Assembly (NCBI GenBank): GCA_022841745.1
Contig: JALHQW010000022.1
Coordinates: forward strand, 1-64,000
DNA from: Saprospiraceae bacterium
Lineage (GTDB): Bacteria; Bacteroidota; Bacteroidia; Chitinophagales; Saprospiraceae
Direction of reading: 5' to 3'
Length of the DNA: 64,000 nt
Part shown: piece after piece, positions 21,740 to 41,866 of the stretch
Layout: each line of letters begins with the position of its first letter
How positions within the stretch are numbered: position 1 is the first letter of the stretch
Translations under genes and position numbers: made by a program
The notes under the pieces: model-generated
The model's database searches: none
The model's input: only the letters and a program-made list of their open reading frames with translations
Told to the model about the DNA's origin: nothing

Positions 21740-21755
21740 ATTACTGCATTTTTGA

Positions 21756-21777
21756 AACAGGATGATTTTGTCCTGTT
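21756..21777. promoter_or_regulatory. Putative Rrf2-type operator upstream of ric
   Basis: Dyad with perfect 7-bp arms AACAGGA and TCCTGTT around an 8-bp AT-rich spacer. Its central 16 bases on the minus strand are AGGACAAAATCATCCT. This matches the GGA-N8-TCC design seen at 22307, 39964, 41745 and 41851. It lies between the rrf2 stop (21793) and the ric start (21739), so ric may have its own regulated promoter. The binding protein is inferred, not shown. Confidence 0.6.
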
Positions 21778-21792
21778 TTTGGTTAAAATTTT

Positions 21793-22227
21793 TTATCGTT
21801 TCAAAAAAGTAAGTCCATCCTTTAGTCCGAGCGCCAAATCCAGCACGGTGGTTTCTTCCAGCATGGCCTTCAGTTCGTTCCGCACAGCGGCAAAACGCTC
21901 GTGCATGGGGCAGGGTTTCAGTGCGTTGCAGGCACGGAGGCCCAACCCGCAGCCCGTGAAAATATGGTCGCCGTCCATGATGGAAACAATTTGGCTGAGG
22001 CGGGTTCCTTCCATTTCCTTGCGCCCGATTTCAAAGCCGCCGTGAACGCCCTGCACCGAGCGGACGATACCGCCTTTGGTCAACTGTTGCAAAATCTTGC
22101 CTGTGAACGCAACGGGAGAGCCAGTCTCTTCGGCGATATCTTTCACGCTGACCCGACTACCTTCCAGCGAGTGGGTGGCGATGAGTAGGGTTGCTCGGAT
22201 GGCGTATTCACAGGCTTTTGAAAACAT
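21793..22227 (-). CDS. Rrf2-family regulator with three cluster cysteines (NsrR-like)
   Basis: 144 residues. The winged helix (about 1-75) has FSKACEYAIRATLLIATHSL, VKDIAEETGSPVAFTGKILQ and the wing VQGVHGGFEIGR. Cys93, Cys100 and Cys106 (C-x6-C-x5-C) are in the loop that holds an iron-sulfur cluster in NsrR/IscR proteins. Loss or nitrosylation of the cluster by NO would change DNA binding. It is 53 bp upstream of ric on the same strand, which fits control of NO repair. The dyad at 22307-22322, about 80 bp upstream of its ATG, suggests autoregulation. Whether it is NsrR in the strict sense cannot be decided from sequence alone. Confidence 0.88.
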   Translation of the reverse strand: MFSKACEYAIRATLLIATHSLEGSRVSVKDIAEETGSPVAFTGKILQQLTKGGIVRSVQGVHGGFEIGRKEMEGTRLSQIVSIMDGDHIFTGCGLGLRACNALKPCPMHERFAAVRNELKAMLEETTVLDLALGLKDGLTFLKR

Positions 22228-22306
22228 GGGTTTTGAATTTTAAAATGGGAAACTGGTAATTCAATTTCTCCTTTTCGATGGCCAAGTTACAGCAAGTTTA
22301 TTAAAT

Positions 22307-22322
22307 AGGACAAATTTATCCG
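22307..22322. promoter_or_regulatory. Putative Rrf2-type operator upstream of the first rrf2 gene
   Basis: AGGACAAATTTATCCG, with GGA and TCC separated by exactly 8 AT-rich bases, embedded in an AT-rich stretch. It matches the other four candidate sites in this window. It lies about 80 bp before the rrf2 start at 22227. Confidence 0.5.
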
Positions 22323-22517
22323 ATTTAAATGGCGGGTAGTTCCATTATTTTACATTGATAAGACAAAATACTGCGCCGTACAAGAAAATGGGGCACCTAA
22401 AAAAAGGGTTGCCAACATCCAGCCCGCCGCCTAAAAAGAAGGGCGATTGTCATCTCTTCACCATTCAGCGAAGGAGTTTTCAGTATCAAAAAGCCATATT
22501 TGGAGCAACTCAACCTC

Positions 22518-22705
22518 CTATTGCAAGCCCTCAATTTCCGTCAATGGTTTGAGCATGGAAACGGTTTGCTCCTCGTTGAAAAGCACCCGCTCCTCGTAGC
22601 GGATATGCGGCTTCCGTTCTTTAAGTGCTTGGCTAACGCTTCGGTAGCGGCAAACAGCCGTTTCAACCTGCTGTGCTCCCGCAATGCCCGCTTGACCACC
22701 GGGCC
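22518..22705 (-). pseudogene. Decayed fragment of a second hemerythrin gene
   Basis: Minus-strand translation gives GPVVKRALREHSRLKRLFAA and TEALAKHL, then after a frameshift KPHIRYEERVLFNEEQTVSM and LKPLTEIEGLQ followed by TAG. The intact hemerythrin at 20556-21023 reads HPMVKRALREHRRLKRLF, then LTAHIRYEERVLFTELQTV and LSEIERLHHGQ. About eight residues are lost at the frameshift, and both the N-terminal half and the C-terminal tail are missing. The third sensor kinase gene starts just beyond it on the opposite strand. The remaining part of 22323-22517 shows no gene. Confidence 0.82.
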
Positions 22706-22832
22706 AAGTTCTTGCGCAATGAACTGTAATTTGACAAATCTTCGTACCTTTAAATCGGTGAAAACAATCCCTAAAATAGGCCCTATGAAACACCCCGTTA
22801 ATGCCGATATCGTTCCTAAGCTTCTTATCCTG

Positions 22833-25800
22833 ATGGAAGCCCTGCAACCCTTCCCCGTTGCTCAACACCCTACCCTACGATTTCAAACAGTTCGGGAAGA
22901 ACGCTCTATTTTTTTCACGCCAATTCTCCTAAATATCGAGCTTCAAAGCCGCATTTTCCGATGCTGGTTTTCCTGCCTGTTGTTTGCGGCAGCATTTCCC
23001 ATTGCTGCCCAGGAACGCCCCCAACTCCTCTTCGACAACTACTCTACCGATGGGCTTTCCAACAATGTAGTCCACGCTACCCTGCGGGACAGACAAGGCT
23101 TTCTCTGGCTCGCCACCGACAACGGGCTGAACCGCTTTGACGGCTATTCTTACAAGACTTTCCTGCATATTTCAGGTGACAGCACTTCCATCGGCGACAA
23201 CACCTGTTATGCCTTGGCGGAGGACTCGAAAGGATTCCTATGGGTGGGCACGGCCAACGGTTTGTACCGCTACAACCCGCTGACTGAGCGGTTTACAGGT
23301 TCGTTTTTGCCAAGAACCATTGACTCCTCCGGCTTCGACGTGAAGCAAGTTTTTATGGATGCGGAAGACTGCCTTTGGATGGGTTCTTCCTTGCCAGTGG
23401 GCTTGTTTCGTTACGATACCCGGAGCAGACGGTTTGACCATTTTGTGAACAGGGCGGCGCAGAAATTCGGTGCAGGCAATGTGGTCAATGACATCTGGAA
23501 AGACAAAAACGGCTTGATTTGGTTGGGGACTTTCAACGGTCTTTTTACCTTCCAGCCCGCTACAGGCGAGTTTGAAAACATGCTGCAAGCCCCGGCGGAA
23601 AAAGACAAATTCCGTGATTTTATCATCACTTCTGTGTTGCAGGATGCCTACCGGGAGCGCCTGCTTTGGCTGACGATTTGGGGCGACGGGCTTTGGAAAT
23701 ATGATAAAATCACCCGAAAAAGCGAGCGGTTTTTGCCGGAGCCACAGTATCGGTACGATGCCATTCACAATGTGCTGCAAGACGCGGTGCAGCCCGATTC
23801 CAACCACTTTTGGCTGGCAGCGGGCGAACTACTTTCCTTCGATGTTGCAAGCAAAAAATTCAACAAATTATCTTCTCAACACCCCGCCCTGCCGCTGAAA
23901 GTCAGTCTTCAACGATTTCATACCGACAAGGCGGGCAATTGCTGGATAGCAGGTTCGGGGGGCATTGCACGGATTTCGGGGCTCCGTCAGCAGTTCGGCA
24001 TCAACATCATTCCAAAATCATTGACCATTCGGGCCATTTTCGACGACCCCATTGCAGGGAAAACCTATTTCGGCAGTATTTACCACAACCGCTCGCTGCT
24101 CATTTTGGATAAAAAAACCGGGCAATGGGAAACAATCCACTTGCCTTTGTTGGATAAAATATTAGCCGGCCCGGTAAAATTCCTGAAAGACAGCAAGGGG
24201 TTTCTGTGGTTTCTCACGAACAAGGGGTTGTTCCGTTTTGACCTTGCGACCCATCGTTTCGAGGAAAAACAAGTCGTGGTTGGAAAGGGGGAAAAGTTGG
24301 GTCAGCGCTTATGCCAAAGGGGGGAGGAAGACGCCGAGGGAAACCTGTGGTTTCTTTTTGACAACCACTACTTAGTGAAATACACGCTTGACGATGACAT
24401 TTTCACCTTGAAACATCAGCAGGTCAGTACGCTGGGAAAAGGGCAAAACGGCAAATTGCTCATCGTCAAACACGACGGTATCCTGCTACTGCACCCGCAG
24501 GCCAGTAAGGTTTTTTATCCTTTTTCCCTGCCCGGCAAAGCAGTTAGTTGCATTGCCGAGGACAAGCGTGGAAATCTTTGGGTGGGCACCTCCACCGACG
24601 GCATTTTTAGCTGGAACCCCGGCGAAGACAAGCCGTCCCGGGTGCGCACCCTGCGCATGGAAACCGGGCTGCCTTCCAATTGGATTCACCAAATCACCTG
24701 CGACCCGGACGGCTTTGTCTGGGCAAATACCCGGCAGGGTCTGGTGAAGATAAACCCCGATGATAGGAGCATGAACCTGTTCACGAAAGAAGACGGCTTG
24801 CTCACCGACGACTTTGACACCGAATTGATTTTCCAGCCGTCCGGGGAAGTGTTTTTACCCTTGTACACATCGCTCTACCATCACTTCGATTTCCGGAAAA
24901 TCCACCAGCCAGACCTTGACAGCCTGCCATTTCATTTCCACACCTTTCGCATTGGCGGCAAGCCCGTTGTTTTTGAAAAAAACATCAACCACCTGCCTGT
25001 GCTTTCGCTGCATTACCCGGACAATGCCTTCTCTGTCGAGTTTGCCGCCCTGAACTTCGACGGGCAAAAAAGCATCCGCTATGCCTTCCGCCTCGCCGGG
25101 CCGGAGGCGGAATGGACCGATGCGTATGCCCACCGCTACGCCGCTTTTTCCCATTTGCCGCCCGGCGAATACTGCCTTGAAGTGCGCATGAGCAACCGCC
25201 AGGGTTTTTGGTCAAAAAACATCCGTTCGCTGAACGTGACCGTACTGCCCGCCTGGTGGCAACGAACCTGGGTACAGGTATTGGCGGGGCTGCTGCTCAT
25301 CGGCTTGATTTCGTGGGTGGTCGCCCGGTTTTACAGCCTGCGTTTGCGGCAGCGCATTGCCGCACTGGAGCGCCAACGGGAACTGGAAGGCATCCGCCGC
25401 CGCATTGCCCAAGACATCCACGACGAGGCGGGCGCCGGACTGACCAAAATCGGGCTGACAGCGCAAGTGGCGGCGCACCTGCCCCCCTCGGATGGCAACG
25501 CCCTGAAACAAAAACTCGACGCCATTCTCGTCGAAACCCGCAATGTGAGCGCCCGTCTCGCCGAGGTGCTGTTTGCCGTCAACCCCCGCTACGACCACTT
25601 CGAGGCGGTGCAAGCGTGGCTGCGGGAATGGAGCCACCGCTTCCTCGAAGATGCCGGGATGGAGGCGGAGTACGATTTTCCAAAAAGCAAATACGACCCT
25701 GTTTTGTCGCCGGAGGTCAAGCGGAACCTGCTCTTGATTTGCAAGGAAGCCCTGAACAATGCCGTGAAATACAGTGGCTCAGCGCGGGTTCGCATCCGTT

Positions 25801-26003
25801 TTTCTTTGGACGAAAAAGGGCGGCGCTACACGTTGGAAGTGCAGGATTTCGGGCGGGGTTTTTCGCCGGAGGCAGTCGGTGCGTTTTCCAACGGGATTGC
25901 GGGGATGAAGGGAAGAGCCTCGCAAATCGGGGCTGCGATTTCGGTGGAGTCAGTGCTGGAAGAAGGGACAGTGGTACTGGTTTCCGGCTTGCTTAGCGGG
26001 TAA
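22833..26003 (+). CDS. Propeller-sensor histidine kinase (Reg_prop / Y_Y_Y / HisKA_3)
   Basis: Membrane sensor kinase of about 1,056 residues. A hydrophobic export segment (FRCWFSCLLFAAAFPIAAQ) ends near 23011 and precedes periplasmic propeller repeats (RDRQGFLWLATDNGLNRFDG, EDSKGFLWVGTANGLYRYNP). A Y_Y_Y domain precedes a transmembrane helix (VLAGLLLIGLISWVVARFY). The HisKA_3 motif is IAQDIHDEAGAGLTKIGL, with the phospho-acceptor His 193 residues before the end; the HATPase N-box region is KEALNNAVKYSG. The G1 box reads DFGRGF rather than the usual DNGxGF. The start is uncertain: ATG at 22833 or 22785 both leave a long leader before the signal segment, and the open frame runs back through a hemerythrin remnant, which is not part of the gene. 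The response regulator at 26110 is its likely partner. Confidence 0.88.
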   Translation: MEALQPFPVAQHPTLRFQTVREERSIFFTPILLNIELQSRIFRCWFSCLLFAAAFPIAAQERPQLLFDNYSTDGLSNNVVHATLRDRQGFLWLATDNGLNRFDGYSYKTFLHISGDSTSIGDNTCYALAEDSKGFLWVGTANGLYRYNPLTERFTGSFLPRTIDSSGFDVKQVFMDAEDCLWMGSSLPVGLFRYDTRSRRFDHFVNRAAQKFGAGNVVNDIWKDKNGLIWLGTFNGLFTFQPATGEFENMLQAPAEKDKFRDFIITSVLQDAYRERLLWLTIWGDGLWKYDKITRKSERFLPEPQYRYDAIHNVLQDAVQPDSNHFWLAAGELLSFDVASKKFNKLSSQHPALPLKVSLQRFHTDKAGNCWIAGSGGIARISGLRQQFGINIIPKSLTIRAIFDDPIAGKTYFGSIYHNRSLLILDKKTGQWETIHLPLLDKILAGPVKFLKDSKGFLWFLTNKGLFRFDLATHRFEEKQVVVGKGEKLGQRLCQRGEEDAEGNLWFLFDNHYLVKYTLDDDIFTLKHQQVSTLGKGQNGKLLIVKHDGILLLHPQASKVFYPFSLPGKAVSCIAEDKRGNLWVGTSTDGIFSWNPGEDKPSRVRTLRMETGLPSNWIHQITCDPDGFVWANTRQGLVKINPDDRSMNLFTKEDGLLTDDFDTELIFQPSGEVFLPLYTSLYHHFDFRKIHQPDLDSLPFHFHTFRIGGKPVVFEKNINHLPVLSLHYPDNAFSVEFAALNFDGQKSIRYAFRLAGPEAEWTDAYAHRYAAFSHLPPGEYCLEVRMSNRQGFWSKNIRSLNVTVLPAWWQRTWVQVLAGLLLIGLISWVVARFYSLRLRQRIAALERQRELEGIRRRIAQDIHDEAGAGLTKIGLTAQVAAHLPPSDGNALKQKLDAILVETRNVSARLAEVLFAVNPRYDHFEAVQAWLREWSHRFLEDAGMEAEYDFPKSKYDPVLSPEVKRNLLLICKEALNNAVKYSGSARVRIRFSLDEKGRRYTLEVQDFGRGFSPEAVGAFSNGIAGMKGRASQIGAAISVESVLEEGTVVLVSGLLSG

Positions 26004-26109
26004 GGAAGGTTTCTCAGCAGTTTTCCTTTCACGCAGAGGGGCTACAGGAAAAAGAATTCACCTTTTTGTGCGATGCCCTTATTTCCAAATCATCCTTAAT
26101 TTGCAGGAA

Positions 26110-26775
26110 ATGAAAGACATGGAAGAAAAACCGGGCAAGCCGCTGCCCCCCGTTATCCGGGTCGCCATCGTGGAAGACGACGACGAGACCCGCAAGCTGA
26201 CCGCCAGCCTGCTCAATATGTACCCTGGCATCGAGTGCGTCGGGGCATTTGAGCGGGCGGAAGACTTCGCCGCAGCCATCGCCTCGCTGCACCCCCACGC
26301 CGTGCTGATGGACATTGGGTTGCCTGGAAAATCAGGCATACAGGCAGTGAAAGAGTTGAAAGATAAACACCGGGGCACGGAGTTCATCATGTTCACCATC
26401 AACGAAGACGCCGAACAAATCGTGGAGGCGCTCGCCTGGGGCGCTACGGGTTATTTACTGAAAAACACCCGTCCCGAAAAAATCGTCGAAGCCATCCGGG
26501 ACGTAGTGGGCGGCGGCGGCAACCTCACCACTTCCGTCACGAGGGTGCTGATGGAGGTGCTGCAAGCCAACCGGGGCAACCGCCAACTCTTGGAAAAGCT
26601 AACCGCACGAGAGCAGGAAACTTTGATGTTGCTGAAAGACGGCTACTCCCGCAAGGAAATCGCCAAAAAACTCTTTCTCTCCGAGGACACCGTGCGCTCG
26701 CATATCCGCAATATTTATGAAAAATTCGAGGTACACAACCGGGCGCAGGTGCTGAAATTGGTTTTTGGGGTTTGA
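26110..26775 (+). CDS. NarL/FixJ-type response regulator (REC + LuxR HTH)
   Basis: 221 residues from the ATG at 26110 (an alternative ATG lies 9 bp later). The receiver domain has acidic residues in IVEDDDETRKL, phospho-acceptor Asp68 (AVLMDIGLPGKSG), Thr in MFTINEDAEQ and Lys in GYLLKNTRP. The LuxR HTH (about 160-215) has LTAREQETLMLLKDGYSRKEI and SEDTVRSHIRNIYEKFEVHN. It follows the sensor kinase by about 106 bp on the same strand. It resembles the regulator at 310-957 in architecture but differs in sequence, so the two systems are probably separate. Confidence 0.93.
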   Translation: MKDMEEKPGKPLPPVIRVAIVEDDDETRKLTASLLNMYPGIECVGAFERAEDFAAAIASLHPHAVLMDIGLPGKSGIQAVKELKDKHRGTEFIMFTINEDAEQIVEALAWGATGYLLKNTRPEKIVEAIRDVVGGGGNLTTSVTRVLMEVLQANRGNRQLLEKLTAREQETLMLLKDGYSRKEIAKKLFLSEDTVRSHIRNIYEKFEVHNRAQVLKLVFGV

Positions 26776-26777
26776 GA

Positions 26778-26797
26778 AATCGCACTTTAGTGCGATT
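26778..26797. repeat. Short palindrome, possible terminator; partial copy at 28114-28136
   Basis: The 9-bp arms aatcgcact and agtgcgatt flank 2 bp immediately after the response-regulator stop. No T-run follows. A degenerate copy (aatagcactttggtgcgattgc) occurs at 28114-28136. In both places an attg lies 20 bp before a GAnnTTTG sequence, which recalls the Bacteroidota promoter (-33 TTTG, -7 TAnnTTTG). Confidence 0.4.
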
Positions 26798-26854
26798 GCC
26801 GGGGCCAATCTTGTGGGAGAACTTTGCGTCAAAATTTCATTAAAATTTCAACAC

Positions 26855-27343
26855 ATGAAAAACATTGTTTTCGCCTCACTTCTCCTTTGCCTTGCTGCCT
26901 GCCAGTCCCCTCAATCCCCTGAAGGGGGTGATGCCGCCGCCGCCAACGAAGCCTTGCTCCAAAGCAACACCGACAAGTTGCTCAACCAAGGAAATTTGGT
27001 TGCTATCCATATCATAACAGTAGAACCTAAGCCCAATGTGACGATGGACCAAGTGCTTGATTTTTACAATACGAAATGGGCGCCTGCCGCTCATCAATAT
27101 TTTGGCTTCCATAGTTTTTTTGGTAAATGCCTTCATGGAACCGAATGTGCAGAAAACAAGATTCTATGGATATCATTTTTTAACACAGCAGCCGACCGGG
27201 ATAAATATTTCAAAATGGATGAAGGCGGTAATGACCTGAATGAGTTGGGTGAAAAAGCTTGGGCACAATTTGCCCCGACTAATGATGCACTACAGCAATT
27301 AGCCACTATTAAAGATGAATGGGGAGACTGGGTGATAAAGTAA
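26855..27343 (+). CDS. Putative lipoprotein of unknown function
   Basis: 162 residues. The N-terminus MKNIVFASLLLCLAACQSPQ has a lipobox (LAAC), so it should be a lipid-anchored envelope protein. The mature part (VAIHIITVEPKPNVTMDQVL, FYNTKWAPAAHQYFGFHSFF, KILWISFFNTAADRDKYFK) looks like a small alpha/beta fold, perhaps of the dimeric ferredoxin-like (ABM/NIPSNAP) class, but the match is impressionistic. Two cysteines lie in KCLHGTEC. The ATG at 26855 is chosen because it gives a proper signal peptide; an earlier in-frame start does not. It is 79 bp after the response regulator and may be under its control. Confidence 0.75.
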   Translation: MKNIVFASLLLCLAACQSPQSPEGGDAAAANEALLQSNTDKLLNQGNLVAIHIITVEPKPNVTMDQVLDFYNTKWAPAAHQYFGFHSFFGKCLHGTECAENKILWISFFNTAADRDKYFKMDEGGNDLNELGEKAWAQFAPTNDALQQLATIKDEWGDWVIK

Positions 27344-27458
27344 TTATCCACTAGCTCATGTTCCCATGCAGCATTCGCACGTTCAAAACGCAGCGAACGA
27401 GTAGGAAGCCGGCGAGACCTTTTCAACTTATTTTTCCAAAAGTCTAATTCCAACTTCA

Positions 27459-27926
27459 ATGAAAAAATCATTCATTCTCCTGTTCGGAGGACTGCTCCTC
27501 TGCGGGCACTCCGTTGGCCAAACCGCTGACCACGAAGCCATTATGCAACTCTGCTACGAGGAAAGCATGGCTTACCATGCTTGTGATTTTGAAAAATGGG
27601 CGACTTACCACGTCCAAAGCGCCGAGGCGGACTTGGCTTACAACAACCCCGACGGCAGCTTTGGCTACGACTCAGGCTGGGAAAAACTCAGCGCCGGCAT
27701 GAAGGAGTGGCTCCAAACTGCCGAAAAAGTGGAGATGAAACTGACAAATACCAATTTCACCTTCGTGATACGAGGCGACATGGCTTTTGTCGCTTACGAC
27801 TCGGATAACCTGAACGCCCAGGGCAAGACCATGAAGCTGCGGGAATACCGCACCCTGCTGCGCAGCGACGGGCAGTGGAAAATACTTGCTGTGCAGGTTT
27901 ATGGCAATCACCTTTCGGGGAAGTAA
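27459..27926 (+). CDS. Exported SnoaL/NTF2-like protein
   Basis: 155 residues. A signal peptide (about 1-20, ending SVGQ) is followed by an NTF2-like cone fold: ADHEAIMQLCYEESMAYHAC, FEKWATYHVQSAEADLAYNN, then beta strands NTNFTFVIRGDMAFVAYDS and MKLREYRTLLRSDGQWKILA. The final strand pattern R-L-L-R-x-D-G-x-W-K-I is typical of DUF4440/SnoaL-like proteins, which bind small molecules or act as simple enzymes or accessory subunits. The role here is unknown. It lies 115 bp after the lipoprotein gene on the same strand. Confidence 0.75.
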   Translation: MKKSFILLFGGLLLCGHSVGQTADHEAIMQLCYEESMAYHACDFEKWATYHVQSAEADLAYNNPDGSFGYDSGWEKLSAGMKEWLQTAEKVEMKLTNTNFTFVIRGDMAFVAYDSDNLNAQGKTMKLREYRTLLRSDGQWKILAVQVYGNHLSGK

Positions 27927-28357
27927 CCGGGCGTTGTGTGACGAAACTTACTCGCAGAATTGGGGCGGCACGAACCATGAGATTTGGCAGCGTAGCCCTC
28001 ATTTTTCAAAATAAACAAGCTGGGAAGGCAAATTTTCTTGGCAAGTTCAAATCTTGCCAAACCTGCTCTTTGCCTCGAAATGAAACGCTTGCAAGGCTTC
28101 TGGCTGCCGGTAAAATAGCACTTTGGTGCGATTGCGGGGGTGGGCGGGAAGCAAGAGATTTGCGGAGGGATTTTAATTTTTTCCGAAGTAGCCATGGGCT
28201 ACATTTTCTTGTTAAACATTGTGGGGGAACTACACGAAACCATGAAGTTCCGCATAACATCATTTGTTATATGCAAATCCACCTTGTACTACCCTGGTAG
28301 AATTTGGATGTTGGCATCTAATGCAAATTGAGTTAAAACCTTAACAAAGTTGCCATT
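27927..28357. other. 431-bp intergenic region
   Basis: No gene is supported on either strand. The region contains the degenerate palindrome copy at 28114-28136 and then becomes A+T-rich towards the next gene. The promoter of the 1,273-residue protein gene must lie here or in the last 100 bp before 28358, but no clear TTTG / TAnnTTTG pair at standard spacing was found. Confidence 0.4.
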
Positions 28358-32179: not shown

Positions 32180-32217
32180 TAAATTGGCTCATGTTCCCTT
32201 TGGGCTGAAACGAACCG

Positions 32218-32266: not shown

Positions 32267-32310
32267 AAGAATGAAATAATTGGCTTAACGCTGTTTGAAA
32301 TAAAACTCAA

Positions 32311-34302: not shown

Positions 34303-34338
34303 TTTCCGTTTTTCGTACACGTTTTTGAATCAAAAACC

Positions 34339-35160
34339 ATGTTCACCTTCGACCTCCTCCTCGACCTCTCCCAATCCGGCTGCCAGCCGGAAATAGTGGA
34401 ACATTTAGACAACCTGCTCCGTGCCCTGCGTGACACGGGTCAGGTCGTCAATGAGGACAGCCCGTTTGTTCAAAAAGGCACCACGCTTCGGGTGTCAATT
34501 CTCTGCCCGGAAGCAGGTGCGTTGGATACTTTGACTTACAGCGTTTTCACCATTAATTGGCTGAAAAAACTGGAGGATGCCCTGCTGACACCCATCAGGT
34601 TCATCCCGACAGGCAAGGACCCACGCTTCGAGCCTTACATCGAAAGGGAAAAACCGTCCTTTTATGTCCTGCGGCATAGCGGCTATTCTCCCTTGGTGAA
34701 CGGCGATACGGGAGATTGCATCCCTTTGTACAAAATCCCGCAGACCTGGCAGTACGTCTCCGTCATGGATGGCGCTCCGCTTGGCGACCGGGAAGGGTAT
34801 CACGACGTCTGGTCGTGGCACCAAAATTACGAGCGCATCTATGGGCTTTGGTTCAATGGTGGAGTCGGGGAGCGGTTTGCATTGCGGCAAATGCAGGACC
34901 CCGGCTCCGAATTGTCCAAGCAAGGCAGGGCGGTGTGCCGGAGCATCGAAGAAGTCAGTGGCATCCCTGCCTACTATTTTTTGTTCAATTACCGAAGGCG
35001 AAACCAGCAACGAGAATCTAACTGGAAATGCCCACTATCGGGAAAGGACTGGTTGTTGCCATTGGCAAAACGAGGAGATTTTATTGCTTTTCGTTGCGAG
35101 GAAAGCAGGCTGGTTTCCTCGTTTACCTCAAACTCCTCTGCTTGGTCGGCTTCTCACTGA
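34339..35160 (+). CDS. DUF2310-like protein with a degenerate zinc ribbon
   Basis: 273 residues. The C-terminal half matches my memory of the DUF2310 family (Zn-ribbon-containing, possibly nucleic-acid-binding): YERIYGLWFNGGVGERFALR, DPGSELSKQGRAVCRSIEEV, SGIPAYYFLFNYRRR, then a ribbon-like segment KCPLSGKDWLLP ... FRCEESRLVSSF. In DUF2310 proteins this is usually CPxCGxxW ... CxxCRLVS; here the second cysteine of each pair is Ser (CPLS, CEES), so zinc binding is probably weakened or lost. The N-terminal half is alpha/beta. It starts 36 bp after the beta-helix gene, indicating an operon. A stem-loop at 35227-35251 could end the transcript. The function of DUF2310 is not known to me. Confidence 0.65.
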   Translation: MFTFDLLLDLSQSGCQPEIVEHLDNLLRALRDTGQVVNEDSPFVQKGTTLRVSILCPEAGALDTLTYSVFTINWLKKLEDALLTPIRFIPTGKDPRFEPYIEREKPSFYVLRHSGYSPLVNGDTGDCIPLYKIPQTWQYVSVMDGAPLGDREGYHDVWSWHQNYERIYGLWFNGGVGERFALRQMQDPGSELSKQGRAVCRSIEEVSGIPAYYFLFNYRRRNQQRESNWKCPLSGKDWLLPLAKRGDFIAFRCEESRLVSSFTSNSSAWSASH

Positions 35161-35226
35161 CAGCCGTGTCAATCAAGGTGCTTTGGCAGTCCGCTTCGCA
35201 AATAGAAGAGGGAGAAAACAGGCTGA

Positions 35227-35251
35227 AAGAGGCGACAACTTGCCGCCTCTT
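35227..35251 (+). terminator. Candidate terminator after the three-gene cassette
   Basis: An 8-bp stem (aagaggcg / cgcctctt) with a 9-base loop, followed by cgttta. It lies 66 bp beyond the DUF2310-like stop codon. The T-run is short, so factor-independent termination is plausible but not certain. Confidence 0.5.
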
Positions 35252-35310
35252 CGTTTATGAAAACTCGGTATCTAATTGTGTTCGCAAATCATTAATTCAA
35301 AGCCTTTAGG

Positions 35311-36687
35311 TTATTTCCTCCAAGGCAAATCCAACACCCGCTCCCCAGCGAGGTAGCCAAGCCGCAGCCCCTCGTCGCAGTCCATGCGGAAGTGCACGCC
35401 AAGCGGGATGCGGGAGTAGGCGTTTTCGTTTGCCATTTCAACGAAAGTATTGAACGAGCGTGGCGTTCCCCTGAACTCCGTCCTGTCTTTGTGGCAGTTG
35501 TCGGTGAAGTGGTAATTGAACCCGAAAACATCGGTCAGAACGGTTGCCCCAGCGCCGGCAAAGCCGGAATGGCCTGATGGGTAAGCGGGAAATGGAGGCG
35601 TTGCACCTTCAACGGTCGTGTTGCTGAGGATGCTCGTCCAGTTCGGGTCGAAGTTGCGCCGGATGTAATGCACGGGGCGCTCGTAGTTGTAAATGTACTT
35701 CGAATTCCAGATGGCGATGCCAGCATCGCACAGCGCCATGCCCATTTTGGCATAAAGCTCCACGGTTCTATCCAGCTTAAGTCCTTCAATATCAACGATT
35801 TGGTTGGCAATGGCCACCTGCCGCATTGCTGGCTCGAAAGTCTGCTGGAAGAAGTCGTCGCTCCAAAACTCGGCTATCCACCAAGCATCCTCGTCCTGCC
35901 CCGCCTTGATTTTATCCACCCAGATTTGGGTTTCTTTTGCCTGGTTGTAAATCTGGGAATTCGGGTCTTCACTCCAGGCGAGCGGCGGTTTGGCGACCAA
36001 GTCTGCCTGGCTCATGGCAAAGGGGCGCACCTGGCCCCAGTATGGGAACAGCGCTGCCGAAAAGTCAGGGAAAGATGGCTGCCACAAGCCGTCACCTGAT
36101 GGCGGAGCGTAGCTGGCAGGCTGTGGGTCGAGGTAAGCCTCGTGCCCAGCGGCGTCGGTCTTCGACCAGTCGAAAATGGCGGTGGCGACGGCCTCGCCAA
36201 ATGCTTTTGAACGGTCAAAAACCTCGGCTTCCACCTGGGCAGCGTACTTGTCCTCAAAAGACTGGTTGAGGTCGGCGATTTTAGCCAAATCATTCGCCTG
36301 GATATGTGGGTAAAAATTTTGCAGCATGATATGATAGGCTGCATTCACGGCTGTTGGCCAGTGGTACTGTTTCCCAGCCTCGATTTGCGGCAGCGACAAC
36401 CCGGCAAAATGGCCGCCCAATGAATTGTACTCGGGCATACCGGGCACGGCGGCTTCGTAACCTGCCAATCCGGTGTACGCAAATGCACGGGCGGCAGCGG
36501 GTGGGCGGTAGCCCGGCGAGTAGCGGTCAATGTCCTGTACAAGTTGGAACCATGAAAGTGGTACTTCCGCTGAAAACTGTTTAGCAGCCACGGATTCTTC
36601 AACAATAGGGTCGTTATCTTGCTTGCAGGAGAAAACGCCCAGCATGAGTAGCACCAACAGGGGTGCGGTAAAACGTAGGAATTTCAT
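35311..36687 (-). CDS. Vanadium haloperoxidase / PAP2-like lipoprotein
   Basis: 458 residues. The N-terminus has a lipobox (LMLGVFSCKQ), so it is probably a lipid-anchored envelope protein. The fold is the all-alpha vanadium-dependent haloperoxidase/PAP2 type, with the C-terminal active-site signatures YNYERPVHYIRR, PPFPAYPSGHSGFAGAGAT (PSGH) and SRIPLGVHFRMDCDEGLRLG (SR-x5-H). Members either oxidise halides with H2O2 using vanadate or hydrolyse phosphate esters; sequence alone does not tell which. It lies downstream of the NO reductase gene on the same strand, but a 70-bp perfect palindrome separates them, so it is probably transcribed separately or attenuated. Confidence 0.85.
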   Translation of the reverse strand: MKFLRFTAPLLVLLMLGVFSCKQDNDPIVEESVAAKQFSAEVPLSWFQLVQDIDRYSPGYRPPAAARAFAYTGLAGYEAAVPGMPEYNSLGGHFAGLSLPQIEAGKQYHWPTAVNAAYHIMLQNFYPHIQANDLAKIADLNQSFEDKYAAQVEAEVFDRSKAFGEAVATAIFDWSKTDAAGHEAYLDPQPASYAPPSGDGLWQPSFPDFSAALFPYWGQVRPFAMSQADLVAKPPLAWSEDPNSQIYNQAKETQIWVDKIKAGQDEDAWWIAEFWSDDFFQQTFEPAMRQVAIANQIVDIEGLKLDRTVELYAKMGMALCDAGIAIWNSKYIYNYERPVHYIRRNFDPNWTSILSNTTVEGATPPFPAYPSGHSGFAGAGATVLTDVFGFNYHFTDNCHKDRTEFRGTPRSFNTFVEMANENAYSRIPLGVHFRMDCDEGLRLGYLAGERVLDLPWRK

Positions 36688-36778
36688 ACGATTATAATTT
36701 TAAGTGTGAAAAAAATGGATAGAATTTATGGTTAGCCCAATTGAAATCAATGGACGAATTTTGCCAAATCCAAGCCTT

Positions 36779-36848
36779 TTTTGAGAGGCGGGGTTATCGA
36801 ACCCCGCAGTTCCGGAACTGCGGGGTTCGATAACCCCGCCTCTCAAAA
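36779..36848. repeat. 70-bp perfect palindrome downstream of norZ
   Basis: Every base from 36779 pairs with its partner up to 36848 around a centre at 36813/36814 (35-bp arms, no loop). The arm contains gagaggcggggttatcgaa and ccccgcagttcc. It begins 8 bp beyond the norZ stop codon at 36856, so it can form a strong hairpin at the 3' end of the norZ mRNA. A close relative occurs at 45255-45320. Confidence 0.85.
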
Positions 36849-36855
36849 GTGACTG

Positions 36856-39255
36856 CTATGCCGCCATAATCTCTTCCTCTGTCATTTCTGGTTCGTTTTC
36901 GGTGGTTTCGTCGGATGGTGTACCCAACAATTCAACCCCTGTGGAAGCCCCTTTGAGCGACCCCCACCTCGATACGATGAACCAAGCCAGCGGAATCACG
37001 CCGCCAAAGAAGAACACGGAAGCACCAATGCCACGCAGCCAGGTCAGTTTTTCAAAAATGCCGCCGCCAGTAAACGCATGCGAGCGGGCAAACCACAGCC
37101 CATTGTCCACGATGGCCTTGAACTGGATGGCCCCTGCGGGGAACAGGTCCAGCATGACCATCAGCATCAGGCCAGCGTTGATGGACCAGAAGGCGAACTT
37201 GACAAGCTTTTCGCTCCAACGGTTTCCCTTGAGCAAAAGCCGGGAGGCAAACAGCATGGCCGCCAGCGAAATATTGCCGTAAACCCCCATCAGCGCAGCG
37301 TGTGCGTGGTTGATGGTGAGGTAGGAGCCATGCTCAAAGTAGTTCATGATGGGCAGGTTCACGATGATGCCCATGACGCCCGCCCCAAAGAAGTTCCAGA
37401 AATTGGTGGCGACGAGGAACAGGAAAACCTCCGGAAACCCGAAGTTGCCTAATTGGTCTTTTCCTACTCCGTTGACCGCCATCCGGGGCATGTTTTTGAA
37501 GCGCCATGCCTCCACCGTCAGCAGGATAAGCGGGACAAATTGCAGGGTGGAAAACACCGAGCCGAGCGCCATCGTGGCCACTGGTTTTGCGTTCCAGTAG
37601 AAATTGTGCGAAATGCCCAGCAGCCCCGTTCCAAGGAAAAGAATGGTGGCAAAATAGACCACCCGGATGGCGGCCTGACGGCTCACCAGCCCCATCAGCA
37701 CCATCAAATAGCTGACAATGACCGTGATAAACACTTCAAAAAACGCCTCCACCCACATGTGGATGACCATCCAGCGCCAGAAGTCGGCAATAACGAAATT
37801 GGTCTCTGGCGTGGCCACGAAGCCCGACAAAAACAGCAACGGGATGCCGATAACGGAGTAGATAATCCAATTGGGCAGGTTCCAAGGTTCCCCTTTTACG
37901 AAGGCTGGTTTTACGCCCCTGTAAACGACGATACCCCATATCACGAAGATGACCATTAGCAAAGCCTGGTAAATTTTTCCAAAGTCAACATACTCCCAAC
38001 CCTGGTGGCCCAGTAGGTGCCACCACTCACCGAATACGCCTTTTGGCCCAAGCACCATGCCCAGCAGTGAGCCACCCGCCAATACGATAAGCATCCAGAA
38101 CAGCGTGTTGATGAGCGGAAGCTGCCCGGGGATTTCCTTTTTGGACAGGATGGGGCAAATGAAAATGGAGGAGGCAATCCAGCAAATGGAAATCCAGTAG
38201 AGCGCCAGCATCAGGTGCCAACTGCGGGACATGGTCACCGGGAACACCTCCGATGGGTAGATGCCGAACCATCCCAGAAAGTTGACAAAATCGTTGATGG
38301 TGATGATACCGCTCGCCACTTGCAGGAAAAACAGCAAGGCTGCCACGGCGAAAAACTTATAAGTGGCTCGCTGCGTCGGGGTCGGCTTGAAATTGGCGAC
38401 CTTTTCAGCAGTCAGCAAATCCTTGCCAGCAGGCTTGAAAAATTTGTTGGGCAGCTGGTTGTATTGTCCGATATAGTACAGCACGATGCCGCACATCAGT
38501 ACAAATGCCAGCATCCCCAACACGCTCCATAGTATGACGGGGGAAGTAGGGGTGTTGCCAGCCGCTGCGTCATAGGGCCAATTGTGGGTATAGCTGAAAT
38601 CGCTGCCCGGCCGCTTTACGGCGCATACCCAAGCTCCCCAGAAGAAGAAGGAAGCCAGGTTTTCCACCTCCTGGCGGTCGGCGATGTAGTCCTTTGGCGG
38701 GAACGAGCCTTCTGCGTTTTTGTCAATGAAAATATCGGTGTAATAGGTCCTCAGCTTTCCCAGCGAATAAGCTTGGGCGGGGGTCAGGGTCACGATGTTC
38801 CCAGCTTTGTCGTAACGGTTTTCCTTCAGTTCCGCCTTGATGTTTTCCCCGATGATTTTCAGTTCCATGTCGGTGGCGTCCCGGCCATTATTCTTTTTGA
38901 AATCAGCAACCTGGTACTCGTTCATGTAAACGGTGATGTAGTGCAGGGCCTCGGCGGTGTAGTCGGGGCCCCGCTGCGCACCATCGCCCATGAAAGAGCC
39001 GTACTCCATCAAAGCGTATTTGTGGAAGACCTTCTGGCCTTCCTCGATGGTCGTTTTGTCCATCATCACCTCGCCCGTAGGCGACTTGAAGCCGGTCATG
39101 GGTGGGGCGTCATTGTAGGTCTGGTAGCCAATCATGCCGACACCAGCGACGCTGATGATGAGGATGAAGGTGAGCGGTTGCCACCAATTTTTGGTGTTCA
39201 TGAAATAGCTGATGCTCTTCGTTCCGTTGGCGCTTTCGTTGCTTTCCGCTTTCAT
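36856..39255 (-). CDS. norZ: Quinol-dependent nitric oxide reductase (qNor)
   Basis: About 799 residues from the ATG at 39255; other starts are a TTG at 39309 and an ATG at 39201. It reduces 2 NO to N2O in the cytoplasmic membrane. The N-terminal extension typical of qNor (an anchored helix, then a soluble domain with EEGQKVFHKYALMEYGSFMG and GAQRGPDYTAEALHYI) replaces the separate NorC subunit. The rest is a heme-copper-oxidase-like bundle of about 12 helices with conserved His/Glu sites, for example SRSWHLMLALYWI, HLLGHQGWEYVD, WMVIHMWVEAFFEVF and TINHAHAALMGVYGN. No norC gene is nearby, consistent with qNor. It is downstream of an rrf2 gene (39509-39946) on the same strand. A palindrome follows its stop. 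Confidence 0.95.
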   Translation of the reverse strand: MKAESNESANGTKSISYFMNTKNWWQPLTFILIISVAGVGMIGYQTYNDAPPMTGFKSPTGEVMMDKTTIEEGQKVFHKYALMEYGSFMGDGAQRGPDYTAEALHYITVYMNEYQVADFKKNNGRDATDMELKIIGENIKAELKENRYDKAGNIVTLTPAQAYSLGKLRTYYTDIFIDKNAEGSFPPKDYIADRQEVENLASFFFWGAWVCAVKRPGSDFSYTHNWPYDAAAGNTPTSPVILWSVLGMLAFVLMCGIVLYYIGQYNQLPNKFFKPAGKDLLTAEKVANFKPTPTQRATYKFFAVAALLFFLQVASGIITINDFVNFLGWFGIYPSEVFPVTMSRSWHLMLALYWISICWIASSIFICPILSKKEIPGQLPLINTLFWMLIVLAGGSLLGMVLGPKGVFGEWWHLLGHQGWEYVDFGKIYQALLMVIFVIWGIVVYRGVKPAFVKGEPWNLPNWIIYSVIGIPLLFLSGFVATPETNFVIADFWRWMVIHMWVEAFFEVFITVIVSYLMVLMGLVSRQAAIRVVYFATILFLGTGLLGISHNFYWNAKPVATMALGSVFSTLQFVPLILLTVEAWRFKNMPRMAVNGVGKDQLGNFGFPEVFLFLVATNFWNFFGAGVMGIIVNLPIMNYFEHGSYLTINHAHAALMGVYGNISLAAMLFASRLLLKGNRWSEKLVKFAFWSINAGLMLMVMLDLFPAGAIQFKAIVDNGLWFARSHAFTGGGIFEKLTWLRGIGASVFFFGGVIPLAWFIVSRWGSLKGASTGVELLGTPSDETTENEPEMTEEEIMAA

Positions 39256-39354
39256 GTGCAAAGGATTTTCAGGCCAACCGCAGGCGGCAGGGCCTACTGA
39301 GGTTGACAAAATTTGAAGGGATGATGCTGATAGAGGTGAGCTTTAGCTGCTACT

Positions 39355-39441
39355 TCACCATGCTTGGATGAAGTTGGAGGCCATCAGGAAACCGATGGGC
39401 AAGTTGTCGGGCAGCTCTTGGATAATGAACTTGGCCGTCAT
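39355..39441 (-). CDS. Possible 28-residue leader ORF upstream of norZ
   Basis: A short frame MTAKFIIQELPDNLPIGFLM followed by ASNFIQAW lies between the rrf2 gene and norZ on the same strand. It looks protein-like (balanced, amphipathic) rather than random, and could be a leader peptide or a fragment of a lost gene. A weak relative of the shared dyad (aagagtcttttatctt, 39473-39488, 10 of 16 matches to the cytochrome site) and an interrupted GATAAAA / TTTTATC repeat lie just upstream of it, so regulation of norZ could act here. Nothing else is seen in 39256-39508. Confidence 0.3.
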   Translation of the reverse strand: MTAKFIIQELPDNLPIGFLMASNFIQAW

Positions 39442-39508
39442 GTGGACTGATATTAGGTGATAAAAAAGAATTAAGAGTCTTTTATCTTAAAAATGATTCA
39501 AAAAAAAG

Positions 39509-39946
39509 TCACGCCACGAGGCGGAACCTTTCATCGCTCACCTTCTCGCCCAGTTCGGCGAGTGAAGTGATGTCAAATTCTTCTTTCATGGCCCGTTTCG
39601 CCTCCTTCCAGAAGTCGTGTACGGGGCAGGGTGCTTCCACCCCGCAGCCGGGCAAGCCCAGCAGGCATTTGTCAAAAAAGTCCGCTCCTTCGAGGACATG
39701 GACAATGTCTGTCAAAAATAGCTGTTCGGCAGGCTTCGTCAGGGCCACGCCGCCGTTCGGCCCCCGATAAGATTCAAGGATACCATGCTGGGTCAGCGTT
39801 TGAAAGGTTTTAGTGAGGAAATGGAAAGAGATGTTCAGTTTTTCGGCAATCTCGCCGATGCTCACGTAGCCCGTCCGCTCCCTTTCAGATGCCATGTAAA
39901 CCAGCGCCCGCAATCCATAAACAGTGGCTTTTGAAAGTACTCTCAA
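39509..39946 (-). CDS. Rrf2-family regulator with three cluster cysteines, next to norZ
   Basis: 145 residues. The winged helix has LSKATVYGLRALVYMASE, IGEIAEKLNISFHFLTKTFQ and the wing YRGPNGGVALTKP. Cys94, Cys101 and Cys107 have the same C-x6-C-x5-C spacing as the other two Rrf2 proteins here. Direct adjacency to norZ on the same strand suggests it controls NO reductase in response to NO or iron-sulfur status. A dyad at 39964-39979 lies 18 bp before its start and could serve autoregulation. Confidence 0.88.
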   Translation of the reverse strand: MRVLSKATVYGLRALVYMASERERTGYVSIGEIAEKLNISFHFLTKTFQTLTQHGILESYRGPNGGVALTKPAEQLFLTDIVHVLEGADFFDKCLLGLPGCGVEAPCPVHDFWKEAKRAMKEEFDITSLAELGEKVSDERFRLVA

Positions 39947-39963
39947 GACTCGAATTTGTATTT

Positions 39964-39979
39964 AAGACAATTTTGTCCC
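39964..39979. promoter_or_regulatory. Putative Rrf2-type operator upstream of the second rrf2 gene
   Basis: On the minus strand GGGACAAAATTGTCTT, i.e. GGA-N8-TCT with the same AT-rich spacer as the sites at 21756, 22307, 41745 and 41851. It lies 17 bp from the start codon at 39946, overlapping the expected promoter or leader. Confidence 0.5.
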
Positions 39980-40024
39980 AAAACTACGCCAAAGATTTTT
40001 ATTGCAAAGAAAAATTGTGGGCTT

Positions 40025-41221
40025 TTAATGCTTTTCTAAGAACTTGACAAACGGCCCAGTTACGAAAAGTAGAATTCCCAACGCCATCACCCCACTGAAA
40101 AGCAGCAAGGGCAGCAATGCACTCCCCCACCCCATGCCGCTGGTGCCCAGCAGCACCTCGGTTGCCAAGAAGCCAATCAGGAACAATGCGCTGCCAATTT
40201 TGGTGGCTTTCCGCAGGTCGAGCCATTTCATTTCAAAAAACAAGGCAATAAAAAAGCAGGTGATGACCCCCAACAGGCAGAGGTGCAGGTAGCCGATGAT
40301 GAGGTTCCTGCCGGCAAATGCTACGGCTTGGATGGGCGGGAAAACGGATAGAAACTGGAGGATGTACTTCAAAATGAACGAGCCAACGGCAAACCAAAGG
40401 AAGGCACGAACCCATTTGTTTTTCGTTGAAAACCAAGCCCTTGCACCTCCAACTATCATTCGTGAAAAAATCAAAAGCCCTGCCATTTGCAGCAGCGCCG
40501 CTATTGCCGCAGGCACCCAAACCGCCCTGCCAAAACTCATACCTAGCAGTGAAAGCAAGTAAGCAGGGATGATTGAGATCGTGAACAAAGCATAAAACTG
40601 CCTTGCCTTTTGGGCGTCGAAGTTCACGCTGTCCATCTCCAGCCATTTGAAGAAAATGCCCAGTGCCACGAACTGGAACCAGCCGTTATACTGGAAGTGA
40701 AGGAAGAAATAGACCGCTGAATTGTATGCCTCTGAGCCACCCAGACCCTTGGCCGACAGCGCACCAATGGCAAAGGGTGCCAGCGTCGAAAGCAGCCCCA
40801 ACCATAGCCCCGTTTTCACCCAGCGCAGCGGTAAGGAGTTAGGCAAAAGCCGAACGTCTTTGAAAAACCGGAAAATGAACCAGTAATTGAGCACTTGGAA
40901 CAGCGTGGAGCAGATAATGGAGTACAGCCCGTAGCCCTGCAAGGCGAAACTGACCAGTACGCCCACGATGACCACGACGGTCAGCTTGAATTGAAAGGCG
41001 TATCTCCCTGATTGGATTTGTTCTTTTGATAAAAAAAGGTTGGCCAATAGAAGCATCATGGCTGTATAAACCCAGCCCTGAAAAGCGGTGTGCGAGTGGG
41101 CGTGGAGCAGGTGATCGTAGGCAAGGGGCAATTTCAAGAAAGTGGAAAGCCGCATCAAAGTGCCTACCAGCGCAATGACCAACAAAAACAGCAGGCTTAT
41201 TTTGCTCCAACTCCCATTCAT
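40025..41221 (-). CDS. Polytopic membrane protein of the nor region, possibly heme-binding
   Basis: 398 residues with about 11-12 predicted transmembrane helices and almost no soluble domain. The first loop holds LLHAHSHTAFQGWVYTAMML, and conserved-looking His residues recur within helices (YFFLHFQYNGWFQFV, LIIGYLHLCLLGVI). This resembles the core of heme-copper-oxidase-like or NnrS-like proteins, but I cannot assign a family with confidence. It sits between two rrf2 genes, upstream of norZ on the same strand, which strongly implies a role in NO metabolism or sensing. The gap to the upstream rrf2 gene is 36 bp. Confidence 0.75.
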   Translation of the reverse strand: MNGSWSKISLLFLLVIALVGTLMRLSTFLKLPLAYDHLLHAHSHTAFQGWVYTAMMLLLANLFLSKEQIQSGRYAFQFKLTVVVIVGVLVSFALQGYGLYSIICSTLFQVLNYWFIFRFFKDVRLLPNSLPLRWVKTGLWLGLLSTLAPFAIGALSAKGLGGSEAYNSAVYFFLHFQYNGWFQFVALGIFFKWLEMDSVNFDAQKARQFYALFTISIIPAYLLSLLGMSFGRAVWVPAAIAALLQMAGLLIFSRMIVGGARAWFSTKNKWVRAFLWFAVGSFILKYILQFLSVFPPIQAVAFAGRNLIIGYLHLCLLGVITCFFIALFFEMKWLDLRKATKIGSALFLIGFLATEVLLGTSGMGWGSALLPLLLFSGVMALGILLFVTGPFVKFLEKH

Positions 41222-41257
41222 GCACTGGTTCGTTTGCTTGGCAATAGTTTTGGAATT

Positions 41258-41668
41258 TTAGTAGCCCTTCCCGTCCAGCATTCCACCTATCGAGCAAGCC
41301 GATAGCGTAGCCTTCAGTCCTTCCCTGCTACCATAGAAATGGTGGTGCAATGGGCATGGAAGCTTACTTGAACATGTCGGCATACCAAGGATACAACTCG
41401 TCAGTGCCCCCTTCCCGTCAATGCACTCCACAATGTCCAATAACGTCACATTTGAGTTTGCCTCGCTGATATAGAACCCTCCATGAGGCCCCTTCACGCT
41501 GCTGATGAGGCTATGGCGGGAAAGCTGTTGCAAAATCTTGGCGAGGAACTGCTGCGGCACTTGCAGAGCATCGGCGATTTCTTTTACGCCCATGTTCTTC
41601 TCCCTGCCCTCTTGCGCTGTCATATAGATTACTGCCCGAATGGCATATTGGCAACTTTTGGTAAACAT
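41258..41668 (-). CDS. Rrf2-family regulator with three cluster cysteines, divergent from the nos set
   Basis: 136 residues. Winged helix with FTKSCQYAIRAVIYMTAQE, VKEIADALQVPQQFLAKILQ and wing VKGPHGGFYISE. Cys92, Cys99 and Cys105 repeat the C-x6-C-x5-C pattern. An extra Cys6 is shared with the Rrf2 at 21793. It is divergent from the cytochrome c/nosZ set and upstream of the 12-helix membrane protein. Two copies of the shared dyad lie in the 242-bp divergent region, so it may control both directions. Confidence 0.88.
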   Translation of the reverse strand: MFTKSCQYAIRAVIYMTAQEGREKNMGVKEIADALQVPQQFLAKILQQLSRHSLISSVKGPHGGFYISEANSNVTLLDIVECIDGKGALTSCILGMPTCSSKLPCPLHHHFYGSREGLKATLSACSIGGMLDGKGY

Positions 41669-41744
41669 GATTCAAAATTGAGTGGCGAGCATGCGCCGCA
41701 AGCAAATTATCGTTGAACAATGAAACCGCAAATCTCACCTATTT

Positions 41745-41760
41745 CGGATAAAAATACCCT
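41745..41760. promoter_or_regulatory. Putative Rrf2-type operator on the rrf2 side of the divergent region
   Basis: CGGATAAAAATACCCT: GGA-N8-CCC, one base off the GGA-N8-TCC rule. It lies about 77 bp upstream of the rrf2 start at 41668, close to the 80-bp distance seen for the site at 22307. Confidence 0.45.
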
Positions 41761-41850
41761 TTTTTACTTAATGACAAATATCAGTCTGACACCTGATAAT
41801 CGTCATCAACCAAGCAATTGGCAAAGGGCAAACTTTGCCCCATCGAAAAA

Positions 41851-41866
41851 AGGATAAAAACATCCG
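41851..41866. promoter_or_regulatory. Putative Rrf2-type operator upstream of the cytochrome c / nos set
   Basis: AGGATAAAAACATCCG: perfect GGA-N8-TCC, 44 bp before the cytochrome c start. An 11-bp direct repeat (ctgataatcgt at 41793-41803 and 41884-41894) and a 7-bp-stem hairpin (41820-41839, ggcaaag / ctttgcc) also lie in this intergenic region. Confidence 0.55.

Follow-up and report, generated by a model that had tools for sequence, protein, structure and literature searches.

A 22-bp dyad as the probable operator of Rrf2 regulators beside nitric oxide and nitrous oxide genes in Saprospiraceae

We analysed the first 64,000 nucleotides of contig 22 (JALHQW010000022.1, positions 1–64000; hereafter the window) of the 8.43-Mb, 178-contig genome of a Saprospiraceae bacterium (GCA_022841745.1). 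The window encodes three regulators of the Rrf2 family, and we describe a 22-bp dyad lying before their genes and before adjoining genes of nitric oxide (NO) and nitrous oxide (N2O) metabolism, which we regard as the probable operator of these proteins. rrf2A is followed by ric and a hemerythrin-domain gene, rrf2B is followed by norB, and rrf2C diverges from a cytochrome c/nosZ/nosL set:

20556..21023, minus strand: hemerythrin-domain protein, directly after ric (PF01814)
21026..21739, minus strand: ric, iron–sulfur (Fe–S) repair di-iron protein (TIGR03652, above cut-off)
21793..22227, minus strand: rrf2A, Rrf2 regulator of the ric-linked clade (PF02082, rrf2_super, tree)
36856..39309, minus strand: norB, NO reductase with a fused cytochrome c-like domain (PF22085, COX1)
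39509..39946, minus strand: rrf2B, Rrf2 regulator of the nor-linked clade (PF02082, rrf2_super, tree)
40025..41221, minus strand: polytopic membrane protein, whose relatives adjoin rrf2C in other genomes
41258..41668, minus strand: rrf2C, Rrf2 regulator of the nos-linked clade (PF02082, rrf2_super, tree)
41905..42387, plus strand: cytochrome c, first gene of the nos set (PF00034)
42502..44490, plus strand: nosZ, Sec-dependent (clade II type) N2O reductase (TIGR04246, above cut-off)
45419..45847, plus strand: nosL (PF05573)

The rrf2A, rrf2B and rrf2C products score 80.8, 103.8 and 93.7 bits against PF02082 (gathering cut-off 30), and NosZ scores 931.6 bits against the Sec-dependent equivalog (cut-off 625). 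The closest named matches of rrf2C come from Saprospiraceae metagenome-assembled genomes (MAGs; 82–86%). Cytochrome c is listed from a TTG at 41905 and may instead start at the ATG at 41911. The membrane protein at 40025..41221 has no match in Pfam or NCBIfam; we take it to be NnrS-like, and the name nosD within the nos set is likewise our assumption.

The dyad emerged de novo before rrf2 genes of the order to which this genome belongs. A template-free palindrome search of 53 distinct rrf2 upstream regions, refitted from a seed and the best palindromic words at widths of 18 and 22, returned TWWARGAYAWWWWTRTCYTWWA with a log-likelihood of 252.2 (48.5–66.1 in 12 dinucleotide-shuffled sets), and the operator-like signal is a 22-bp dyad, TWWARGAY-AWWWWT-RTCYTWWA. 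The top de novo match before rrf2 coincided with the beginning of the coding sequence and was eliminated by ending every region at the start codon. The de novo palindrome search on ric upstream regions alone gave no such palindrome. Two matrices were built, the first from the 53 regions and the refitted one from 175 rrf2 upstream regions; the three rrf2 upstream regions of the window belong to both sets, and sites 1 and 6 (below) lie outside the training regions of the refitted matrix. The score threshold is 10 throughout, except for counts in divergent rrf2/nos regions with the refitted matrix, where it is 8, and all shuffles preserve dinucleotides only.

Across the whole window, the refitted matrix gives exactly six sites a score of at least 10; the corresponding count in 60 shuffled windows averages 0.18 and never exceeds 2. 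Five of them had been proposed in an initial annotation of this DNA, and all five dyads were located at the claimed places, confirmed in the sequence; their distances to start codons, given there as 16–80 bp, measure 17–79 bp. Site 6, between rrf2B and norB, was absent from that list. Being dyads, the sites are given without strand:

21756..21777: site 1, dyad in the 53-bp rrf2A–ric gap (first matrix 5.5, refitted 11.6)
22304..22325: site 2, candidate operator of rrf2A (first matrix 20.9)
39470..39491: site 6, new, candidate operator between rrf2B and norB (first matrix 11.2, refitted 11.3)
39961..39982: site 3, candidate operator of rrf2B (first matrix 18.4)
41742..41763: site 4, candidate operator on the rrf2C side of the divergent region (first matrix 15.9)
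41848..41869: site 5, candidate operator on the cytochrome c/nos side (first matrix 12.1, refitted 15.9)

How the dyad is defined matters. The sites had been described as sharing a GGA-N8-TCC design, which is exact in sites 1, 2 and 5 but not in site 3, ending TCT, or site 4, ending CCC. As a motif this pattern fails: the window holds 20 exact matches against 15.8 expected, and 15 of 100 shuffles reach 20. With up to three mismatches RGGAYAAAWWYATCCG fares somewhat better (17 matches against 8.25 expected, equalled in 1 of 100 shuffles) and is still weak as a definition; both were dropped for this reason. The exact core GGAYAAANWYATCC occurs 12 times genome-wide, several copies looking coding, and a 14-bp core often falls inside genes. 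By that first definition alone the dyad would be doubtful. GGA-N8-TCC is one flavour of the 22-bp dyad. Enrichment over shuffled DNA had been set beforehand as the test of the idea, and the full 22-bp dyad stands far above shuffles.

The dyad recurs in relatives. The rrf2 loci compared were the best-scoring search matches together with stretches picked from their lists, leaving out proteins shorter than 115 residues, matches starting after residue 15, upstream regions under 80 bp and duplicates. With the first matrix, 40 of the 53 training rrf2 regions reach 10, as do 7/28 cytochrome c and 1/17 nosZ upstream regions; none of four nnrS-like upstream regions does, and the shuffle rate is 0.7% of 1,370. 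Of 121 unseen rrf2 upstream regions, all free of DNA shared with the training set, 59 score at least 10; the shuffles give 70 of 6,050 (61/122 against 52/6,100 before two DNA-sharing regions, that of the window rrf2B included, were removed). Named genome records tell the same story, 51 of 80 loci reaching 10; for those new to the set (20 known loci and two DNA-sharing ones removed) the count is 35/60 against 36/3,000 shuffles. The isolates with a site are Phaeodactylibacter xiamenensis (L361), Yeosuana marina, Tenacibaculum soleae and Galbibacter marinus, the last three of which we take to be Flavobacteriales; P. xiamenensis is a cultured relative whose nos-linked rrf2 is arranged as in the window.

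The sites also recur at matching places; counts by identity class (50% or more) take in training as well as new loci. Site 2 has a counterpart in 30 of 32 rrf2A relatives in this class (training loci included) and in 12/17 unseen ones, and 11/14 unseen rrf2C relatives carry a site. Site 5 is conserved in each of six close loci compared by alignment, two of which come from a single MAG; one of the six has lost the rrf2C-side site. All four rrf2B–nor gaps examined, the window included, hold a site scoring 11.3–18.7, and several rrf2B relatives that fall short before rrf2B itself retain a worn copy of the dyad at the same place. Conservation at orthologues, as the initial annotation envisaged it, holds for the nos and nor sites; most ric orthologues lack a site of their own.

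Site 1, before ric, is the weakest of the six. What had been given as a 16-mer at 21756–21777 is a genuine dyad with a misplaced range: the 16-mer spans 21759–21774, embedded in a 24-bp perfect-arm dyad, AAACAGGA-N8-TCCTGTTT (21755–21778). Twenty loci have rrf2 and ric in tandem, ric being the downstream gene, and two of these hold a site in the gap; the layout of site 1 is shared with locus L256 (score 13.0), so the site rests on two loci. As RNA, site 1 folds into a hairpin of −8.7 kcal/mol (z −2.9).

Other features were noted around these genes. A second copy of ric is represented by a C-terminal piece at 4928–5083 (minus strand; about 70% identity over 51 residues) with an in-frame TGA, a remnant. 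Beside rrf2A, at 22521–22702 (minus strand), two pieces are 62–71% identical to the hemerythrin protein of 20556–21023 and are probably the remnant of a duplicated gene. Between site 6 and norB, at 39350–39440 (minus strand), lies a reading frame of about 28 codons, and norB may start inside its listed frame.

Divergent regions like that between rrf2C and the nos set also carry the dyad. Among 47 divergent rrf2/cytochrome c–nosZ regions (gaps of 60–700 bp), the refitted matrix, itself partly fitted on their rrf2 side, finds at least one site in 46 and at least two in 38, against 61 and 1 of 1,880 shuffles; L395 is the sole region without a site. The first matrix at a score of at least 10 gives one or more sites in 43 of the same regions and two in 30. 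Clustering at 80% identity leaves 43 regions, of which 39 have at least one site and 26 at least two by this matrix (20 and 0 of 1,290 shuffles).

Where the dyad sits relative to promoters was then read from their boxes. The −33 box is TTTG. The −7 box of the phylum is TAnnTTTG at −12 to −5, as given in the part of PMC9723704 we draw on. On the rrf2 side, matches to TAnnTTTG (at least 5/6) peak outside the operator at offset +35 from its start (28/85, 23 exact; mean rate over offsets 2.6%). With this offset the operator would span roughly −47 to −26 and lie over the −33 box. For nos, the −7 box starts 8–18 bp upstream of the operator in 42 of 46 regions (367 of 2,300 shuffled flanks), so the operator would cover the bases transcribed first. 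Members of the rrf2B family have a −7 box that runs into the operator. The predicted boxes of the window are:

22282..22289, minus strand: predicted −7 box of rrf2A, TAACTTGG, 5/6, offset +36
39979..39986, minus strand: predicted −7 box of rrf2B, TAGTTTTG, overlapping site 3
41830..41837, plus strand: predicted −7 box of nos, AAACTTTG, 5/6 of TAnnTTTG

From the AAACTTTG box, nos transcription is predicted to start at 41842, with the operator spanning +7 to +28; for rrf2A the predicted +1 is 22277. We also considered the operator centre as the −7 box itself; its sense-strand bias is weak (41 against 24, p 0.046) and the +35 register is preferred. In the predicted register, the sites of rrf2A and rrf2C, over the −33 box, and those of rrf2B and nos, at the start, have the geometry of repressor sites, because a protein bound there would block RNA polymerase and a site after the start is no ordinary activator site.

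A second type of box accompanies the dyad at nos. The pattern TGAY-N4-RTCA occurs in 46 of the 47 nos regions (shuffles: mean 0.9, maximum 4) and in 42 of 43 after clustering. For the 42 regions with a usable −7 box, its centre falls at −40 to −43 in 34 and at −62 to −66 in 23, with both in 17; CRP/FNR activators of class II usually sit at −41.5. The window has both, listed without strand and with centres counted from the predicted nos start:

41772..41783: CRP/FNR-type box TGAC-N4-ATCA, centred at −64.5
41794..41805: CRP/FNR-type box TGAT-N4-GTCA, centred at −42.5

No CRP/FNR protein was found among the window proteins scanned, which cover part of the frames. With FNR-type boxes and Rrf2 dyads side by side, nos looks doubly controlled, and these regions are probably where an Rrf2 repressor and an FNR-type activator come together. 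The boxes resemble the HcpR motif TTGAC-N4-GTCAA (from the portion of PMC1274295 consulted); what sets them apart from HcpR/DNR boxes is their place at nos promoters, together with an Rrf2 dyad.

The flavour of the half-site follows the Rrf2 clade: CGGA for the ric-linked, AAGA for the nos-linked and TTTRAGAC for the nor-linked proteins. The initial annotation had proposed a single NO-regulon operator; the dyad does go with Rrf2 genes and the nos, nor and ric genes next to them, with conservation at orthologous positions, but it comes in three subfamily-specific flavours. The recognition helix shares its fold with that of Escherichia coli IscR, and its residue 40 aligns with IscR Ser40, which contacts bases in the passages of PMC9338935 used here. 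A half-site with C at the fourth place accompanies 31/44 proteins with A or Q at residue 40 and 2/61 others; put the other way, 31 of 33 proteins with a C half-site have A or Q there, and 13 more A/Q proteins go without it. A clade of Rrf2 proteins with an EHTVGK-type helix (L193 and several of L198–L215) has the dyad in 0/16 upstream regions and should have another operator.

All three Rrf2 proteins of the window contain C-x6-C-x5-C, and the aligned columns C93, C100 and C106 are cysteine in 175, 174 and 175 of 175 proteins. Since these cysteines are all but invariant, the Rrf2 proteins likely carry an Fe–S cluster. That NO is the signal we infer from the gene neighbours.

The nos-side operator of this genus is a hybrid of one CGGA half and one AAGG or AAGA half (CGGA in 6/7 aligned loci), so nos might be bound by both rrf2A and rrf2C, as a heterodimer or in competition. 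This reading, which would tie N2O reduction to NO repair with an FNR-type activator at −41.5 as the gate, strikes us as unlikely, though worth stating.

A strict scan used two 22-mers, one for each flavour and derived from training sites, over 198 genomes of the order. They gave 11 and 2 sites; the raw counts prove little, because reversed controls gave 8 and 1, and the neighbourhood says more. Six of the 13 lie by an rrf2 gene (L321–L325, L330), two precede DUF2249 genes (L320, L326) and one precedes a COX2/COX1 pair (L331). In total 10/13 have rrf2, DUF2249, sufB or oxidase neighbours, and 6/9 once the training loci L322, L324, L325 and L330 are taken out. A globin gene follows rrf2 in L325 and L330, with ric next in the latter.

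At L319:1501–1522 a strict dyad lies about 108 bp before sufB, and in some species the regulon may extend to Fe–S assembly.

For the genome that contains the window, the idea of a wider regulon was rejected: allowing one mismatch gave 29 sites against 16 in the reversed control, and of the 27 inspected (41743 and 41849 were already known) 20 lie inside open frames. One intergenic promoter candidate was seen outside the window, C48:3576–3595 (L169), scoring 10.2 and lying 28 bp before a 516-codon frame.

Taken together, one 22-bp dyad precedes the genes of the Rrf2 clades that flank ric, nos and nor, in corresponding positions across the order and also in some Flavobacteriales. We consider it probable that the dyads are DNA operators through which the adjacent Rrf2 proteins repress their own genes and the NO/N2O operons. 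Each Rrf2 dimer would hold an Fe–S cluster on the three conserved cysteines and bind the dyad before its own gene and the neighbouring operon, repressing by masking the −33 box at rrf2A and rrf2C and the transcription start at rrf2B and nos. Loss of the cluster, through NO or another cause, would lift repression, and NO and N2O would be removed. At nos, a CRP/FNR-family activator near −41.5 would supply the positive signal, so that expression would depend on the activator as well as on the repressor being released.

Several observations weigh against this account. Of the 121 unseen rrf2 upstream regions, 62 have no site, 16 of these from the EHTVGK-type clade; only 6/14 rrf2B relatives reach 10 at the place of site 3 (3/13 unseen), and only 3/35 ric orthologues have an upstream site of at least 10 with the first matrix. 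Among isolates, outside the MAGs, four of nine carry a site, with Wenyingzhuangia, Ochrovirga, T. ovolyticum, T. haliotis and Formosa maritima below 10. Three of the 13 strict sites are unexplained (L327, L328, L329), and a near-perfect site, C29:70738–70757 (L180), whose score of 21.4 is the highest of the dyads found outside the window, lies at the 3′ end of a 110-codon frame with no start downstream. The transcription starts are themselves predictions, and the top TAnnTTTG offset overall is +7, inside the operator (32/91), a count that is high because the operator centre resembles TAnnTTTG. Finally, the co-variation of residue 40 with the half-site is strong in raw counts and had to be set aside, the tree offering too few independent pairs for testing.

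The alternative we take most seriously keeps the dyads as Rrf2 operators and changes the signal, the proteins sensing redox, iron or Fe–S status, as do IscR, RirA and RsrR, instead of NO; we hold this possible, though the less likely version. None of the three proteins reaches an NCBIfam equivalog, the models for IscR, RirA and suf regulators match as well as or better than that for NsrR, and the column aligned with Asp8, the cluster ligand of Streptomyces NsrR, in the 5n07 alignment is mixed (E 100, K 41, Q 12 and V 6 of 175), to which the strict site before sufB may be added; the neighbours, however, are largely an NO and N2O set (ric, nor, nos, globin, hemerythrin and DUF2249 genes). Binding by some protein other than the adjacent Rrf2 seems improbable. 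The pairing of dyad and Rrf2 is read from sequence, and the CRP/FNR-type boxes suggest a further regulator at nos, yet the dyad precedes the rrf2 genes themselves, its flavour tracks the rrf2 clade, and it is missing before the EHTVGK clade.

A role as RNA hairpins, either attenuators or terminators, is more improbable still. It draws on the fold of site 1, which has no clear −7 box ahead of it, and on z values of −2.3 and −1.9 for the stretches of sites 2 and 6, a tendency of any dyad; but the rrf2A and rrf2C dyads lie upstream of the predicted start and the nos dyad after it, and a DNA element fits both, being likelier because the dyad would be untranscribed on one side and transcribed on the other. 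That the dyads are chance AT-rich repeats chosen by eye would explain why GGA-N8-TCC alone is not enriched and why cores also occur inside genes; the unseen-locus, shuffle and conservation tests contradict it, refuting it for sites 2–6 as a set and leaving it next to no probability overall.

Repression by the adjacent Rrf2 proteins places these sites beside several known systems. NsrR of Proteobacteria, Bacillus and Streptomyces is likewise an Rrf2 protein with three cysteines, with targets that include ric (ytfE/dnrN), norB and nnrS, and release by NO, here inferred, would be a further likeness. It differs in its operator, gATGyAT-N5-ATrCATc in the portion of PMC1274295 consulted; with three mismatches this has two matches in the window (1302 and 3296), none near these genes. 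The NsrR equivalog is matched by rrf2A, rrf2B and rrf2C at 28.2, 65.8 and 42.6 bits against a cut-off of 182, and here nos is a main target of the proposed system. RsrR of Streptomyces venezuelae shares the layout of two dyads in a divergent intergenic region, but the sections of PMC5015018 drawn on describe 11-3-11 bp repeats and a different, large gene set; the dyad fitted here departs from that form, being 22 bp and gapless (widths 18 and 22 fitted). IscR has a different gene set, and its equivalog (cut-off 207.55) is matched at 52.9, 69.6 and 55.4 bits.

In a region of the window apart from these genes, 6961–14253, long internal repeats are 77–92% identical, their offsets frequently being a multiple of about 144 bp.

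Rrf2 genes beside clade II nosZ in Bacteroidota and Melioribacter have been noted before, and the portions of PMC6264515 and PMC3534657 describing these neighbourhoods do not give an operator, a promoter register or a regulon such as those proposed here. No described operator of this form was found among open-licence papers, in line with the initial annotation; regulon databases, RegPrecise among them, and subscription papers lie outside that scope. Rrf2 repressor regulons, and Rrf2 beside nosZ, are already known; what is new is a candidate Bacteroidota Rrf2 operator and the probable placing of N2O reductase under joint control.

Much of the clade II nosZ responsible for removing the greenhouse gas N2O is found in Bacteroidota. 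The role of Rrf2 in clade II nos clusters has been called hard to predict, cultured models being lacking (in the part of PMC6264515 used here). The sites described would provide a testable wiring diagram, made up of an operator, a promoter register, a likely cognate regulator and a second activator box, that can be scanned for in any Bacteroidota genome. Within a 20-kb locus, three Rrf2 paralogues appear to share a common dyad plan with different outer letters, and such paralogues, with their diverging half-sites, would form a natural set for studies of specificity.

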